A stretch of 64,000 bases of DNA from an uncultured Bacteroidia bacterium. Lineage in GTDB: Bacteria > Bacteroidota > Bacteroidia > Bacteroidales > ML635J-15. Below the pieces are notes generated by a model. The model worked only from the letters and a program-made list of their open reading frames with translations, was not told the DNA's origin and ran no database searches. A program made the position numbers and the translations under genes. The DNA lies in the NCBI GenBank assembly GCA_902800045.1, contig CADCCZ010000001.1:1-64000 (forward strand), given 5' to 3'. This document shows, piece after piece, positions 25,517-55,042 of the stretch. Positions within the stretch are counted from its first letter, which is position 1. The number at the start of each line of letters is the position of its first letter.

Positions 25517-25550
25517 GGCTTCGCCCGTTTCTGTGGTTACGCCGTTTTTC

Positions 25551-25637
25551 GCTTCGCCGTTTGAATGCCTGCGGCGTTTCTAATTGTTTCTAGGTTTCTA
25601 TGGCTTCGCCGTTTGAATGCCTGCAGCGTTTCTAATT
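25551..25637. repeat. two 35-bp direct repeats, 52-bp period
   Basis: A 35-base unit starting GCTTCGCCGTTTGAATGCCT occurs at 25551-25585 and 25603-25637 with one difference. A related fragment (GGCTTCGCCGTT) appears again at 25654. The region between 25517 and 25777 has no gene. Confidence 0.75.
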
Positions 25638-25729
25638 TTTTAACTTCGTTGATGGCTTCGCCGTTCAAGTTTTTTCAAGATTTTAAATTTAAATCGAAAA
25701 TCGTAAATCCCCAATCGTAAATAATATTG

Positions 25730-25737
25730 TATTTTTG
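25730..25737 (+). promoter_or_regulatory. -7 box upstream of lipoprotein gene
   Basis: TATTTTTG fits the Bacteroidetes -7 element TAnnTTTG, 41 bases before the lipoprotein ATG; no clear TTG -33 element is seen. Confidence 0.4.
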
Positions 25738-25777
25738 CAAAAATATTTAAACATTGTTTGATTAATAATAAATAGGT

Positions 25778-41873: not shown

Positions 41874-44276
41874 TTAGAATAGGTTGGCGATGAGGTAGGT
41901 GACGTATGCCAGCACCCACGCGACCGCCGTGTTGTAGAAGACCGAGAAGAATGCCCATTTTATCTTTCTGGTTTCGCTTGCGACCGCGCCAATTGTAGCT
42001 ATGCAAGGGAAGAACAGCAACATAAATACCATCAGTGCCAATGCAGAGGCGGTTGTAAGGTCGCCCGATTTCTGGATAGCTTCGCCAAGGTCGTCCTCTT
42101 CGCTGGCGTACAGCACGCCGAGTGTACTTACAACTATTTCCTTTGCAGGAATACTCGATAGCACTGCCACGCTTATCTTCCAGTCGAAGCCCATTGGCGA
42201 CATCACTGGCGCAACGAACTTGCCTATCATACCGAGACAGGAGTTTTCGTATTGTATTTCGTTGGCTTCTGCTTCCGTAATTTCTTCGGTTTGTGCAAGT
42301 TCGGTCTCCGAAAGGTCAGTATGTGGATAGTAACTTAATACCCAAATGATTACTGATGCCAAAAGGATTACTGTTCCAATTTTCTTTATGTACTGGTAGC
42401 ATTTTTCCCAGATATGTTTCAGCGTTGCACGCAAAGTAGGCCAACGATAGGGTGGAAGTTCCATTACAAATGGAGTTTCGTCCTGCTTGAATGCCGTCAG
42501 TCGCAGAAGTTTTGCCGTAAGTACCGCCACGATTATGCCGAGCAGATACAGGCAAATCATTACTGTTGCTGCGTATTTGGGGAAGAAAGCTCCTGCCAGA
42601 AGCAGGTATATCGGCAGGCGTGCGCTGCACGACATAAACGGTACTACAAGTATGGTTATCAGACGGCTGCTCTTGCTTTCGATTGAACGTGTTGCCATTA
42701 TTGCCGGTACGTTGCAGCCAAAGCCCATAATCATTGGTATGAACGACTTGCCGTGAAGTCCCATTCCGTGCATCATCTTGTCCATCAGGAAGGCGGCTCG
42801 CGACATGTAGCCCGAGTCTTCCATCAGCGAGATGAACATATAGAGCAGTATGATGTTTGGTAAAAATTCGGCAACTGCGCCCACACCGCCGATGATTCCA
42901 TCGACAACCAGCGAACGCCAAGCGCCTTCGGGAATAATTCCGTTGAATAGGTTTCCAAGAGCATCGAATCCCATCGCAATCCATTCCTGCGGATATGCGC
43001 CGAGCCAGAATGTTACGCTGAACATCAGCCACATAAGCAGTATGAACAACGGGAAACCAAGCCATTTGTTTACAATCAGCTTGTCGAGCTTGCGGGTGCG
43101 CTTGTTGGCTTCCTTCTTGCCTTCGGTATAGGTTTCGTGCAGTGCGCCCGAGATGAAGCCATATTTTGCATCGCTGATGGCAGTTTCGGCATCAATCTCT
43201 AATTGCTTGATGATTTTCTCCGACGAAATTTCTGCCTGCTTCTTCAGTTTTTCGTACGACTTGCTGTCTTTCAGTAGATTGTGGACTTCCTTGTCGTTCT
43301 CAATCATCTTTATTGCCCAGTAGCGGGCTGGAAACTGCTGCGGATAGTCTTCTGTTTCGTGGAGAATGTCGGCGAGCTGTGAAATTTCGGGTTCGAGAAC
43401 CGTACCATAATTAATATGTACATGGCGAGCCGACTTGTTGGCTCCCTCGAACATTTCTATGATTGTGTCGAGCAGTTTGTCGAGACCTTTGCCTGTCTTT
43501 GCTACGGTTGGCACCATCGGGATACCAATCATCGAGCCGAGTTTTTCGTAGTCGAGTTTCGCTCCTGTGGCATCGAGTTCGTCGTACATGTTGAGAGCAA
43601 CAACAACGCGCTGGCTTAGGTCGATTAGTTCGGTCGTGAGGTAGAGGTTGCGTTCGAGGTTCGAGGCTACGACGACATTTACAATAACATCGGGCATAGC
43701 TTCGAGCAGGTTGCGACGAACAAAGACTTCTTCGGGCGAGTATGCCGACAGCGAGTAGGTTCCCGGTAGGTCGGTAATATTGAAGTGGTAGCCCTTATAG
43801 TTGAAGTGTCCGGTCTTTACATCCACGGTTACGCCGCTGTAGTTGCCTACATGTTCGTGTCCGCCCGACAGTGCGTTGAACAGCGAAGTCTTTCCGCTGT
43901 TAGGGTTGCCTACGAAGGCGATGTTTATGATGTTTCGCTGTGTGGTCTTGGTGCGTTTGTAGTTGCACGACAGACCGCAGGAGTCGCAGTCGGTGCAGGC
44001 GAAGAAATTGGGAGCCTTAGCATCCTCGGCGGAGAGCATTGCGTTTGCTTCCTCTTCGGGAAGTACCTCGATTAGTTGGGCTTCGCTGCGGCGCAAAAGC
44101 ACATCGTAGCCCATTATGGTGTATTTTATCGGGTCGTTGAGAGGTGCATCTATTACCGATGTAACCTTGCGACCACGCACAAATCCCATCTCCATTATCC
44201 TTTTCCTGAATCCGCCGTGTCCCGAAACCTTGACGATTACGGCCGATTCTCCATTGTGCAGTTCCGATAGTTTCAT
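41874..44276 (-). CDS. feoB: FeoA-FeoB fusion ferrous iron transporter
   Basis: 800 residues. Residues 1-75 are FeoA (GFRKRIMEMGFVRGRKVTSV, KYTIMGYDVLLRRSEAQLIEV). A linker with CTDCDSCGLSC (Cys94, 97, 100, 104) follows, then the FeoB G domain: G1 GNPNSGKT at 123-130, G3 DLPGTYSLS, G4 NMYD. The rest is membrane-embedded FeoB with its conserved helices (LPNIILLYMFISLMEDSGY, GCNVPAIMATR). It imports Fe2+ driven by or gated by GTP. The FeoA fusion is common in Bacteroidetes; the cysteine-rich linker is less usual. Confidence 0.93.
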   Translation of the reverse strand: MKLSELHNGESAVIVKVSGHGGFRKRIMEMGFVRGRKVTSVIDAPLNDPIKYTIMGYDVLLRRSEAQLIEVLPEEEANAMLSAEDAKAPNFFACTDCDSCGLSCNYKRTKTTQRNIINIAFVGNPNSGKTSLFNALSGGHEHVGNYSGVTVDVKTGHFNYKGYHFNITDLPGTYSLSAYSPEEVFVRRNLLEAMPDVIVNVVVASNLERNLYLTTELIDLSQRVVVALNMYDELDATGAKLDYEKLGSMIGIPMVPTVAKTGKGLDKLLDTIIEMFEGANKSARHVHINYGTVLEPEISQLADILHETEDYPQQFPARYWAIKMIENDKEVHNLLKDSKSYEKLKKQAEISSEKIIKQLEIDAETAISDAKYGFISGALHETYTEGKKEANKRTRKLDKLIVNKWLGFPLFILLMWLMFSVTFWLGAYPQEWIAMGFDALGNLFNGIIPEGAWRSLVVDGIIGGVGAVAEFLPNIILLYMFISLMEDSGYMSRAAFLMDKMMHGMGLHGKSFIPMIMGFGCNVPAIMATRSIESKSSRLITILVVPFMSCSARLPIYLLLAGAFFPKYAATVMICLYLLGIIVAVLTAKLLRLTAFKQDETPFVMELPPYRWPTLRATLKHIWEKCYQYIKKIGTVILLASVIIWVLSYYPHTDLSETELAQTEEITEAEANEIQYENSCLGMIGKFVAPVMSPMGFDWKISVAVLSSIPAKEIVVSTLGVLYASEEDDLGEAIQKSGDLTTASALALMVFMLLFFPCIATIGAVASETRKIKWAFFSVFYNTAVAWVLAYVTYLIANLF

Positions 44277-47374: not shown

Positions 47375-47447
47375 CGGTCCGTAGCTCAGCTGGTAGAGCA
47401 CCTGACTCTTAATCAGGGTGTCGAGGGTTCGAGCCCCTCCGGACCGA
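47375..47447 (+). tRNA. tRNA-Lys(CUU)
   Basis: Acceptor CGGTCCG pairs with CGGACCG; the anticodon stem CCTGA/TCAGG encloses CTCTTAA with anticodon CUU; T arm GAGGGTTCGAGCCCCTC intact. No encoded CCA. It has its own promoter and terminator. Confidence 0.94.
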
Positions 47448-47450
47448 CAA

Positions 47451-47481
47451 AAATCCCGCAACAGCGGGATTTTTTGTTTTT
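47451..47481 (+). terminator. tRNA-Lys terminator
   Basis: AAATCCCGC/GCGGGATTT hairpin with AACA loop and T-rich tail directly after the tRNA. Confidence 0.85.
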
Positions 47482-47535
47482 CCACCTCTTATTTCCATGA
47501 AGAATAGCGTTTTGCTTTTAGCATCCAACCAGTTC

Positions 47536-49416
47536 TTATCTGCTTTTCATCAGAAACGGTAGCACATCCTTGTTGTCGTTCCATATTTTCTGGAATTGGG
47601 ATATAGGCAGGGGTGATGTCCCCAAGCCGATTTCGATAGTGGCGGCCTTTATGCCCTTAGATGTAGCCCAGTTGCTGCATCCTGTGCCGAAATCCTCCTC
47701 TGAATGATATTCGTAGTTGGTGACGTCCTTAAGTCCTTCTGCAAGGTTCTGGCATTGCTGACGGAAATCGCCCTTCTGTCCGTATGCCCAGAAAATTTCC
47801 TCACCAGCCGAATGATAGCTTATCATAGTCACTATGTTTCCAAGCGATTCCACAAGCCCGACCAAAGCCTGCGTCTCGAGTTCTGAATGCCCGTTGGAAC
47901 CTCGGTAGTTTGAACTGCGTGGCGACTTCAAAAATGTCTTGATATGACGGTTGACATCGAAGTTCCTATTTAAGTCAACTCCGAGGGCGTTGCTCTTCCA
48001 CATTCTTAGGAATGAGTTCAGTTCTGGTCGATTGCGGGCCTTGGGGTTTTCTGTATAGTATATTTTCATTATGTTGTCACGGATATGCGGGTCGCGGATG
48101 CTGTCGAGTCCGAATTGAGATATGCACACTCCATCGGGGTTGAGCATCGGGATTATATGAAGCTGGCAGTCTTCGGTCAGTTCCGAATAGCTTGCGCCTT
48201 CAAATGTTCCCGACCAGAAGTTTTGTAGGAAATGCTCTGTCTGGCACATCGCAAGTTGGCTGCACATGTATTCGCGTGCGTGTGATGTGGCCTGTACGAT
48301 GACTTGTCTGCTTGATTTGTCCTTGCCGATTACGAGGTCGAAAACAAACCTTCCGTCGGCGGTTGCACCTAAGGTGTCGATTGTGAGAAGCGATGGGTAT
48401 TGCTTCGCCAGCCTTTTAATGTCGGCACATAGCTTGTCGTATGAGTAAAGTTCGCTTATAGTATCGGTCACCCATTCGACTTTGTTCCAGTTTGTGCGCA
48501 GTATCCCGTTTTCGTCGAAGTAGCACATCTCGCCGTCGGCCGAGAAGTATCCTGTGACTTCCGCTCCAGAAATGTGGTCGATGAATGTCAGTCCGTCTTC
48601 GTTGTTCTTCCAACCACCAATGTGCAGTTGTCCGCGTTCTATTCCGAGTTCCTTGCAGTAGCTGTCGAAATCTTCACTGTTGACGAGCAGGCGGAGTATT
48701 GCACGGCGTGTGTAGTTCTGCGAAAGCAAGCCGATATAATGTTCTCTTTCCCGACCTCTAAGATTTATGGCGAGCGCCGATACAAGGCATTCTACATAAA
48801 GAGAGTCGTTTAATGTGTTCATTATTTGGCTGTTGCATACTATATTGTCGGTGACTGATGTAGCCGTGGCATTGTCGTCGAGCAGGAGGTTGAGTTCTTC
48901 GGCTGAGGCTTTTCTGCTGTTGGTGAACGAGAATACACGTTGTGCCAGCATTGTCAGTTCGGCATTTCTGTCCCTATTTTCCAAGACACCAGCATTTCCA
49001 CTTTCAATTCCATGCTTGGCGCACAGGCTATGGAAACTTTCGCTGTTGATGATATAGTTGCATACGTATTTGCGGCTTATGCCATTTTCAAGGTACGACA
49101 ATAGCTTGTCGCGCTCCTTTTGTTCGATATGGTTTGGTATTATTGTGAGCAAGTCGCCTATATATAGGCTGTCGGGTTTGGAATTGCTTTGGGGCAGGTT
49201 TGAAAAATCGCACAATATGTCGGCCCCTGTTTTCTGTTTTGTTGTAAGTAGTCTTGTGAGACTGTCGGCAAGTGTGCGCGACGGAGTATCACCGGTTGCT
49301 ATTTTGTGTATTCGCTTTATGAAAAGCTTTGGGTTCTTTGAGTCTGCTGCCATTGAAGTGAAATGGCAGAGCATTATGAATGCAAATATGAGTATATTAC
49401 GAATCCTATGCTTCAT
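47536..49416 (-). CDS. M14 zinc carboxypeptidase with N-terminal DUF4214-like repeats
   Basis: 626 residues with a signal peptide. Residues ~80-265 carry two DUF4214-like units (RKYVCNYIINSESFHSLCAKHGIESG and RAILRLLVNSEDFDSYCKELGIERG, plus LENRDRNAELTMLAQRVF). Residues ~268-312 resemble a cell-wall-binding repeat (GWKNNEDGLTFID, GEMCYFDENGILRTNW). The peptidase domain has the HARE zinc site (His379-Glu382), DLNRNF at 481-486, His535 in SYHSAGE and catalytic Glu595 in AATIEIG. The domain style is that of secreted Firmicute enzymes, so horizontal transfer is a real possibility. No T9SS domain is seen, unlike the 10221 M14 enzyme. Confidence 0.85.
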   Translation of the reverse strand: MKHRIRNILIFAFIMLCHFTSMAADSKNPKLFIKRIHKIATGDTPSRTLADSLTRLLTTKQKTGADILCDFSNLPQSNSKPDSLYIGDLLTIIPNHIEQKERDKLLSYLENGISRKYVCNYIINSESFHSLCAKHGIESGNAGVLENRDRNAELTMLAQRVFSFTNSRKASAEELNLLLDDNATATSVTDNIVCNSQIMNTLNDSLYVECLVSALAINLRGREREHYIGLLSQNYTRRAILRLLVNSEDFDSYCKELGIERGQLHIGGWKNNEDGLTFIDHISGAEVTGYFSADGEMCYFDENGILRTNWNKVEWVTDTISELYSYDKLCADIKRLAKQYPSLLTIDTLGATADGRFVFDLVIGKDKSSRQVIVQATSHAREYMCSQLAMCQTEHFLQNFWSGTFEGASYSELTEDCQLHIIPMLNPDGVCISQFGLDSIRDPHIRDNIMKIYYTENPKARNRPELNSFLRMWKSNALGVDLNRNFDVNRHIKTFLKSPRSSNYRGSNGHSELETQALVGLVESLGNIVTMISYHSAGEEIFWAYGQKGDFRQQCQNLAEGLKDVTNYEYHSEEDFGTGCSNWATSKGIKAATIEIGLGTSPLPISQFQKIWNDNKDVLPFLMKSR

Positions 49417-49525
49417 TCCAATAGAAATCCCTCTTGAAGTTTTACTTTCATAATCGTATCCTCTTTTAGTCGGTTGCTGTTCCTGCGCTTATTCTGCCGT
49501 CAATGATGAAATGCCGATTATGGCG

Positions 49526-49533
49526 CAAATATA
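49526..49533 (-). promoter_or_regulatory. -7 box for the M14 peptidase
   Basis: Minus-strand TATATTTG, giving a leader of about 100 nt; no clear -33 element. Confidence 0.45.
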
Positions 49534-49705
49534 ATGATTTTTGAAATACGTATCTTTATTTTGACTAGAAAAGTTGTTGTAATGATATTGATAGTTATTG
49601 TTTGACATATACGCAGCCACAATGCATTGAGGTACAGCGTGACTCAGAGGATGTATTTAGTCTTCAAACGAAGGAGCCATGACATATTATAGTTATTCAA
49701 AACTT

Positions 49706-49738
49706 TTGTCGACACCAATAAAAAACTAATTATCTTTG
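49706..49738 (+). promoter_or_regulatory. promoter for radical SAM/glycosyltransferase operon
   Basis: TTG at 49706-49708 and TATCTTTG at 49731-49738, with a slightly long 22-base spacer; 20 bases before the ATG. Confidence 0.55.
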
Positions 49739-49757: not shown

Positions 49758-50522
49758 ATGTCAACATTTCTTTTCGACAACATAATTTTCGGGCCAGTGC
49801 GCTCGCGTCGCTTAGGCAATTCGTTGGGTGTAAACCTGTTGCCTGTAAATGCAAAGTTCTGTACGTTCAACTGCGTATATTGCGAATGCGGTTGGAATAG
49901 CAAAGGTGTAAAGATTGAACTTCCACGACTTGCCGACATAGTTCCTGCTATGGAAAAGTATTTCTCCGAAAATACTCAGCCACTTGATGTTATCACTTTT
50001 GCTGGAAACGGCGAACCGACAATTAATCCCGATTTCCCCGAAATTGTAGCCGAAACGATTCGCTTGCGCAACAAATATATGCCCAATGTGAAGATTTCGG
50101 TGCTTACAAATGCCTCGAATCTTGGAAACGAAAAAGTTGTTGCAGCACTAAAAATGATTGACGAGCCAATACTTAAGGTCGATACTTTTATCCAGCACGA
50201 TTTTGAATTGATTAACCAGCCAGCTGCTGGATTGTCAATTGCTAAGATTGTGGACAATATTGCAGACAATTTCGAGCATCCTATAATCCAGACAATGTTC
50301 ATGCGTGGAAATATCAATGGAACTTTCTTCGACAACACAACAGACGATTCGCTCCGTGTATATTTCGAGACGTTGAAACGCCTTAATCCTTCGCAGGTTA
50401 TGGTGTATTCCATTGCCCGCGAAACTCCGCTTTCGGGATTGCAGAAGGTTTTTCCCGACGAGCTTGAGAAAATTGGAGCGAAAATTCGCTCTTTGGGTTT
50501 CAATGTGCTTGTAACTCCGTAA
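49758..50522 (+). CDS. radical SAM protein (COG0731-like)
   Basis: 254 residues. CTFNCVYC places Cys35, Cys39 and Cys42 as the CxxxCxxC cluster site; further blocks are VITFAGNGEPTINPDF and VKISVLTNASN (SAM-binding region). Similar single-domain radical SAM proteins act in tRNA or cofactor modification; the substrate is unknown here. It is the first of three genes packed almost without gaps, ending one base before the next frame starts. Confidence 0.8.
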   Translation: MSTFLFDNIIFGPVRSRRLGNSLGVNLLPVNAKFCTFNCVYCECGWNSKGVKIELPRLADIVPAMEKYFSENTQPLDVITFAGNGEPTINPDFPEIVAETIRLRNKYMPNVKISVLTNASNLGNEKVVAALKMIDEPILKVDTFIQHDFELINQPAAGLSIAKIVDNIADNFEHPIIQTMFMRGNINGTFFDNTTDDSLRVYFETLKRLNPSQVMVYSIARETPLSGLQKVFPDELEKIGAKIRSLGFNVLVTP

Positions 50523-53923: not shown

Positions 53924-55042
53924 ATGTTCGACGACGACAGACTCTACGACGTCGCCGTAACGTTCGTTCATGGAATAGGCGACATAAACGCCAAGAAATT
54001 GATTTCCTATTTTGGCTCGGCCAAAAATATGTTCCATTCGTCGTACAAGCAGCTTAAGTCGGTGCAAGGAATTGGCGAAGTGGTGGCATCGCGCCTGTAT
54101 TCCAATTTCGAGTCGGCACTAGTCGCTGCCGAAGAAGAACTCAAATATGTGTACGCCAATGATATAGGTTTTGTCACCTTTGCCGACGATGCATATCCCG
54201 AACGTTTGCGCGAATGCGCCGACTCTCCCGCTATATTATATTATAAAGGTATACCCGATTTTTCGGCTAGGCATATAGTAAGCATTGTAGGGACAAGAAA
54301 TGCTACAAAATATGGTGTGGAGTTCTGCAATGAGTTTGTAGCTGAGCTTGCCAGCAGGTATCCCGATGCGGTAGTCGTAAGCGGACTTGCTTACGGCATA
54401 GATGTAACGGCTCACAAGGCCGCTCTAAAGAATAACTTGAAAACATGGGCTGTGCTCGGACATAGCCTCGAAACAATATACCCGTCGTTGCACAAGAAGG
54501 TCGCCGACAAAATGCTTGAGAGTAACGGTGCCTTGATTTCCGATTTTCCGCATGGAACAAAAATCGACCCGTCTAACTTTGTCAGACGCAACCGAATCGT
54601 GGCAGGACTATGCGACGCCTTGCTCGTGGTGGAGTCGGGAGAGAAGGGCGGCTCTATCATAACAGCCAACATTGCCAACAACTACAACAAGGATGTGTTC
54701 GCGTTGCCAGGAAATGTAACATCGACGTATAGTCGCGGTTGCAACAAGCTAATCAAGACAAATCGAGCCAATCTTTGCGAATCGTTCGACGATTTCGAGT
54801 ACATAATGAACTGGACATCGCGTTCGCAAAGTAAAATGCCGACGCTCGACTTCCAGTTCGAGTTGACAGCCGACGAGAAAAAAGTTACCGATGTGCTGGC
54901 AAAGTACGAATTCCTCGATATCGACAACCTGCGCCGTCAGACCGAAACGACTCCTAACGAGCTGAGCCTTATTTTGCTGCAACTCGAAATGAAAGGTGCA
55001 ATAGTGTCGTTGCCGGGAAAAATTTTCTCATTAAAGCGTTAG
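53924..55042 (+). CDS. dprA: DNA processing protein DprA
   Basis: 372 residues. An N-terminal helix-hairpin-helix (GIGDINAKKLISYFGS, VQGIGEVVASRLYSNF) is followed by the Rossmann-like DprA domain: VSIVGTRNATKYG, VVSGLAYGIDVTAHKAAL, SEKGGSIITANIA-type loop (GEKGGSIIT), DVFALPGNVTS. A winged-helix C-terminus ends at about 372. DprA loads RecA on incoming single-stranded DNA during natural transformation. Confidence 0.92.
   Translation: MFDDDRLYDVAVTFVHGIGDINAKKLISYFGSAKNMFHSSYKQLKSVQGIGEVVASRLYSNFESALVAAEEELKYVYANDIGFVTFADDAYPERLRECADSPAILYYKGIPDFSARHIVSIVGTRNATKYGVEFCNEFVAELASRYPDAVVVSGLAYGIDVTAHKAALKNNLKTWAVLGHSLETIYPSLHKKVADKMLESNGALISDFPHGTKIDPSNFVRRNRIVAGLCDALLVVESGEKGGSIITANIANNYNKDVFALPGNVTSTYSRGCNKLIKTNRANLCESFDDFEYIMNWTSRSQSKMPTLDFQFELTADEKKVTDVLAKYEFLDIDNLRRQTETTPNELSLILLQLEMKGAIVSLPGKIFSLKR

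Follow-up and report, generated by a model that had tools for sequence, protein, structure and literature searches.

A Lone Zinc Carboxypeptidase Gene, Likely of Foreign Origin, at Several Chromosomal Positions in One Genus of Rumen Bacteroidales

Results

A Predicted Exported M14 Carboxypeptidase That Appears to Move as a Single Gene

We analysed a 64,000-nucleotide stretch of DNA from an uncultured Bacteroidales bacterium (the window) and find in it a gene for a zinc carboxypeptidase of peptidase family M14 that lies at about four different chromosomal positions among its carriers. We consider it probable that this is a one-gene unit, encoding a Sec-exported and probably periplasmic metallocarboxypeptidase of non-Bacteroidota lineage, which would have reached one rumen Bacteroidales genus from an outside source, with a Bacteroidales-type promoter either brought along or acquired, and later spread between species of the genus to these positions. 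The gene and the parts of its predicted product are as follows.

47536..49416, minus strand: predicted gene for an exported 626-residue M14 zinc carboxypeptidase, from the open reading frame, Pfam and orthologues
49345..49416, minus strand: Sec-type signal peptide covering residues 1-24, recognised by eye from a basic start, a hydrophobic core and small residues where cleavage is likely
48988..49170, minus strand: N-terminal repeat r1, residues 83-143, duplicate of r3
48808..48972, minus strand: possible degenerate middle repeat r2, residues 149-203, with weak support from shuffling
48619..48807, minus strand: N-terminal repeat r3, residues 204-266, duplicate of r1
48475..48618, minus strand: hairpin stretch resembling choline-binding repeats, residues 267-314, from sub-threshold NCBIfam, PDB and PHROGs matches
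47539..48462, minus strand: M14 peptidase domain, from Pfam, solved-structure matches and alignment

An earlier note on this DNA, made from its letters, had placed an M14 carboxypeptidase at exactly this open reading frame, and the assignment is borne out: the single Pfam family in the protein is Peptidase_M14 (PF00246; residues 331-615, E=1.2e-33), scoring 117.4 bits against a curated cut-off of 21.6, so that membership in M14 is certain as far as sequence comparison goes. The domain shares its zinc ligands, catalytic glutamate, Asn-Arg pair and length with carboxypeptidases A, B, and T, which are its best solved-structure matches (some listed as procarboxypeptidases), and with Bacillota proteins annotated as M14 family zinc carboxypeptidases. 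By position and the roles in carboxypeptidase A, we take H379, E382, and H535 to be the zinc ligands, E595 the general base, and N483, R484, and R381 substrate-binding residues; all seven are unchanged in 9/9 sequences, comprising the window protein and eight full-length orthologues with 93-96% identity to it. Lys474 presumably stands where carboxypeptidase A has Arg127. The gene of a tenth carrier, G694, is split across two contigs (92% and 98% identical). An AlphaFold2 model built on the nine-row alignment had a pLDDT of 38.1 and was unusable.

The product is most likely an exported, periplasmic enzyme; no lipobox was seen by inspection in its signal peptide. The note's statement that the enzyme carries no type IX secretion (T9SS) signal also stands, since the 626-residue protein has no match to the T9SS tail model TIGR04183 at E<=10, compared with 119 matches in the host genome at E<=0.001, all except two of which exceed the family cut-off.

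The N-Terminal Part Is Duplicated and Resembles Gram-Positive Binding Modules

Internal duplication in the N-terminal part is clear from the comparison of r1 with r3, whose Smith-Waterman score of 94 was equalled by 0/2000 shuffles, whereas r2 is doubtful as a repeat, its score being equalled by 130/2000 shuffles against r1 and 524/2000 against r3. The earlier note had called these segments DUF4214-like. The Pfam model (PF13946, cut-off 23.2 bits) gives no match at E<=10 in any of the nine sequences, nor any match in the host genome at E<=0.001, but indirect evidence keeps the idea alive: r1 would be DUF4214-like by the motif NSE.F...C...GI..G; the repeats agree with that family in length and in having L.NG...S.E.F at the corresponding place; and a home-made profile of 51 domains (drawn from genomes and Pseudomonadota plasmids, without Clostridia) scored a weak 3.7 bits against the N-terminal part, as high a score arising in 14/5000 shuffles, of which 2167 gave any reported score. 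From the blank Pfam search and the weak profile score together, we judge a DUF4214-like nature plausible but unproven. Searched alone against plasmids, the N-terminal part gave one chance-level match (E=5); no DUF4214 match was found in one Butyrivibrio plasmid, and viral contigs showed no DNA pattern of DUF4214 type.

Within the phylum and order of the host, DUF4214 is a rare domain, occurring in 3/198 genomes of the phylum, all in one genus, and in 1/344 genomes of the order. The order's sole match (locus L068, genome G449) belongs to a large, repeat-rich surface protein of proteobacterial appearance on inspection, and is possibly contamination.

For the cell-wall-binding-like segment that the note had also proposed, no Pfam cell-wall-binding model matches the 626-residue protein at E<=10, but residues ~262-314 match choline-binding, glucan-binding or endolysin families below threshold in three libraries: NCBIfam (E 0.064 and 0.22), PHROGs (E 0.14) and, with a 303-residue query, PDB, where these types account for 10 of the 11 matches at E<=10 (E from 0.012 to 8.6) and riboflavin synthase for the other (E=1). 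At this sub-threshold level the stretch resembles the Gly-Trp and Tyr-Phe-Asp-x-x-Gly hairpin pattern of repeats such as those of LytA, CbpF-type choline-binding protein and alternansucrase, but the window protein has one degenerate stretch and no array. Teichoic-acid choline is not generally expected in a Gram-negative host, which makes anchoring through that ligand by a single degenerate repeat unlikely. We suggest that the repeats and the hairpin stretch may be left over from a surface-binding module in an ancestor of Gram-positive type, perhaps now retained for binding substrate or envelope.

Full-Length Relatives Are Confined to One Genus

Counting relatives at E<=1e-10, we find full-length ones in 10/31 genomes of the family, all of them in the window's own genus (10/26) and none in the five genomes of other genera. 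Wider draws gave no full-length relative outside the genus: 2/296 genomes of the phylum matched, the full-length match being the window's own genome; 3/395 of the class, namely the own genome and two with the M14 domain only; and 6/393 of the order, namely four full-length within the genus (the own genome and three others) and two with the M14 domain only. A scan of genome contigs, which detects close relatives only, returned 10 loci, all in Bacteroidia/Bacteroidales assemblies, and no donor. The sources named in the records are red deer, the rumen of water buffalo and the forestomachs of yak, and one of the assemblies, Bacteroidales bacterium UBA1184, is named as a rumen organism in PMC7820578. 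Phage and viral collections yielded no relative.

The Peptidase Domain Groups with Bacillota Sequences

In a tree of 14 M14 domains, the window domain adjoins a group of three Bacillota sequences and one archaeal sequence (support 84/84, a branch that is not starred), and three Bacteroidota M14 domains (L012, L016, and L017) form a separate clade (100/99). The fork below the Bacillota one has 70/84, and the tree contains long branches; its rows are limited to what plasmids and the genome draws supplied. A placement of the window domain as sister to the three Bacteroidota domains was rejected (p-AU 0.009, in a test made after the tree had been inspected), and a grouping with Rossellomorea and Paenibacillus alone, a clade absent from the tree, was not (p-AU 0.134). 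BLASTP scores run the same way for two Bacillota sequences (120 and 110 bits, vs. 70 to 82 for the three Bacteroidota ones), a third Bacillota sequence reaching 49 bits. The position of the domain beside Bacillota M14 domains thus has moderate support.

The Rossellomorea and Paenibacillus proteins have the motifs W-K-(S/A)-N-A-x-G-x-D-L-N-R and Y-H-(S/T) in common with the window domain, at an identity to Bacillota M14 proteins of ~27%, but they start near the M14 domain and have no equivalent of the ~320 residues that precede it in the window protein. The three Bacteroidota proteins belong to the same peptidase family, but their N-terminal part is unlike that of the window protein and, by inspection, they end in a tail resembling that of T9SS cargo, which the window protein does not have. 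A surface-associated M14 protein of a Bacillota, the LPXTG-anchored peptidase listed for Erysipelothrix rhusiopathiae (PMC9637936), differs in its anchoring.

Taken with the AU test, the tree makes a foreign origin of the gene likely. The earlier note had inferred horizontal transfer from domain style; the transfer is supported here by other evidence, namely the restriction of full-length relatives to one genus, the nearness, with moderate support, of the M14 domain to Bacillota sequences, the rejected Bacteroidota sister placement and the rarity of DUF4214 in the phylum and order. The codon-usage comparison that the note had proposed yields no clear foreign signal: the gene's GC content of 0.470 (vs. 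0.435 +/- 0.038) lies at the 87th percentile of 30 window genes and its codon distance at the 77th, both within range and not decisive as evidence of transfer. The blank Pfam result, and the fact that the only full-length homologues found are Bacteroidales proteins of the same layout, come close to what the note itself had counted as evidence against its proposal. Its observation is partly confirmed and its interpretation partly supported.

The Gene Occupies About Four Chromosomal Positions

The ten carriers hold the gene at about four chromosomal positions.

Site A: between tRNA-Lys and the radical-SAM gene; G000 (the window's own genome), G634, and G703
Site B: beside a MORN-repeat gene and a helix-turn-helix gene; G704 only
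Site C: upstream of lplA; G567, G695, and G692 with cdsA as the opposite neighbour, G687 and G375 with different genes in that place
Site D: beside an AAA-ATPase-like gene; G694 only

Within the window, site A has the following layout.

47375..47448, plus strand: tRNA-Lys(CTT), left neighbour of the insertion
47479..49720, no strand: insertion, a stretch absent in relatives, in which the tRNA-Lys terminator runs almost into the radical-SAM gene
49526..49533, minus strand: TAnnTTTG box (TATATTTG), a candidate Bacteroidales-type promoter element moving with the gene
49758..50522, plus strand: radical-SAM gene, right neighbour of the insertion and a core marker for dS

Of the 11 loci compared for site A, 10 are empty (seven carriers with the gene elsewhere and three non-carriers) and one, that of G634, is filled; these 11 come from 20 radical-SAM loci, with weak or partial radical-SAM matches kept outside the 20. 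At site C, taken as the junction of cdsA and lplA, three carriers (the window's own genome, G704, and G694) and the non-carrier G478 are empty, in a comparison made without G693 and G634, where lplA is absent from the stretch examined. There are thus carriers with the gene at site A and an empty site C, and carriers with the reverse arrangement.

When carriers at different sites are compared, the start of the shared unit usually lies 120 to 175 nt ahead of the gene, and for G687/G694 as much as 291 nt; its end falls on the stop codon or within ~30 nt past it, further out where repeats align. These ~2 kb are filled by the single M14 open reading frame, together with the TAnnTTTG box, which we take from its consensus to be of Bacteroidales type. 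We found no transposase, integrase or recombinase in the unit, which leaves it outside the typed mobile elements. The tRNA-Lys gene was considered as an attachment site and rejected because the insertion starts ~30 nt past it, after its terminator. At site C, G687 and G375 carry extra unrelated genes upstream of the M14 gene (L008 and L006), and in G687 cdsA lies ~11 kb away on the same contig.

A further explanation is contamination or chimaeric assembly, the named relatives being metagenome assemblies; one of them, G703, has two partial radical-SAM matches (L054 and L067; 97% and 85% identical) and so may be a mixture of strains. We regard this explanation as very improbable, given that the window lies on a 1.39-Mb contig and that, at sites A and C, several genomes have the M14 gene next to the same core genes.

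Synonymous Divergence Points to Recent Spread

Among nine of the ten carriers (the split gene of G694 being left out), the dS of the M14 gene ranges from 0.06 to 0.18, vs. about 0.2 to over 1 for core genes. FeoB, radical-SAM and lplA served as core markers, cdsA and FtsH being left out; eight carriers were compared for FeoB and radical-SAM, G703 also being omitted (no FeoB, partial radical-SAM), and seven for lplA, with G634 omitted as well. The M14 value is lower in 28/28 pairs for FeoB, 28/28 for radical-SAM (partly saturated and capped at 3.0) and 21/21 for lplA, and does not correlate with core dS (Spearman -0.19, 0.11, and 0.19; p 0.33, 0.56, and 0.41, respectively), the pairs not being independent. 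Codon bias is not the cause of the low dS, since the gene has an effective number of codons (ENC) of 50.6, an average value for the 30 window genes, and conservation is equally high in the 125 nt of noncoding DNA upstream, where the median identity is 96% over 45 pairs of the 10 carriers and the minimum 92%. Median dN/dS is 0.25 for the repeats, 0.16 for the hairpin stretch and 0.16 for the M14 domain, indicating purifying selection on all three. FeoB (window 41874-44276) has a dS far below that of radical-SAM in some pairs (G000-G375, 0.31 vs. saturated), so that exchange within the genus may have affected this gene too.

An old, vertically inherited gene that many members of the genus have lost, relocated by rearrangement and slowed in synonymous change by constraint, would account for the restriction to one genus and for the host-like codon usage and promoter box. 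We consider this improbable: it does not agree with the flat dS, the ordinary ENC or the conserved noncoding DNA upstream, nor with site A being filled in G000 and empty in its close relative G704 while site C is empty in both. A low dS unrelated to that of core genes, together with the empty and filled sites, points instead to the recent spread of a one-gene unit of ~2 kb with its own promoter box. At site C the M14 gene is younger than its neighbour lplA, so the copies there would need repeated insertion or replacement. Entry into the genus is probably older than this recent spread.

Short Repeats Flank the Gene at Three of Four Sites

Both 200-nt flanks of the gene hold 25-100 short repeat motifs per kb in all seven carriers outside site A, vs. 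a 99th percentile of 15 for tiles of the window, and the flanks at site A hold none. Outside site A, 13/14 gaps adjoining the gene have at least 20 motifs per kb (the fourteenth has 19.96), a density reached by 0/6 gaps at site A and 5/39 non-adjacent gaps. The motif was picked after the flanks had been seen and the carriers share sites, so we treat the enrichment only as a lead. The unit could have spread by homologous recombination through dispersed intergenic repeats, which border the gene on either side at every site except A. A broader and rather unlikely proposal is that in this genus such repeats form a transposase-free recombination platform for single genes, those of foreign phyla included, which would travel from species to species and from site to site as one-gene cassettes bounded by repeats, the M14 gene being one of them.

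Elsewhere in the window, positions 25517-25777 hold an array of short intergenic repeats (GGCT..GCCGTTTC and GTTTCTA types) of the kind flanking the M14 gene in the seven other carriers, and positions 53924-55042 the gene for DNA recombination-mediator protein A (DprA), of possible relevance to the uptake of linear DNA.

Discussion

The enzyme would remove residues from the C-terminus of peptides or of peptidoglycan stem peptides, two kinds of substrate that we hold to be about equally likely. It is quite possible that it is a peptidoglycan peptidase, cutting gamma-D-Glu-diaminopimelate or acting as a stem-peptide carboxypeptidase on the walls of its own cell or of rivals, with an N-terminal part that binds the envelope. 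PMC6403190 lists M14 domains joined to LysM, PGB1, LPXTG, SLH, CWB2 or ChW modules among cell-wall peptidases and describes E. coli MpaA as cutting gamma-D-Glu-DAP; the window protein matches the MpaA model weakly (E=0.00041, 19.4 bits vs. a cut-off of 157). DUF4214 is named in PMC12780176 as a likely surface-anchoring domain in segmented filamentous bacteria. The binding modules are sub-threshold in the window protein, and its best solved-structure matches, some of them procarboxypeptidases, fit better with a digestive carboxypeptidase, periplasmic or secreted, acting on dietary or microbial peptides of the rumen, with the N-terminal part as propeptide or spacer. That role is just as possible, although an N-terminal part of >290 residues, partly duplicated and under purifying selection, speaks against it. 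The literature covered here on DUF4214, on M14 peptidases with choline-binding modules, on horizontal transfer in the rumen and on UBA1184 contained no description of this gene; our searches likewise found no paper joining DUF4214 with a carboxypeptidase and none on horizontal transfer of a zinc carboxypeptidase in rumen Bacteroidales.

With codon usage that resembles the host's and an N-terminal part that escapes curated models, the gene would pass in routine annotation as an ordinary carboxypeptidase, which is a caution. On our preferred reading of a foreign gene that has recently spread, it offers a clean case of a lone enzyme gene, non-Bacteroidota in style, spreading among uncultured rumen species without a recognisable mobile element, in which the route of movement can be tested through the sites found empty or filled.
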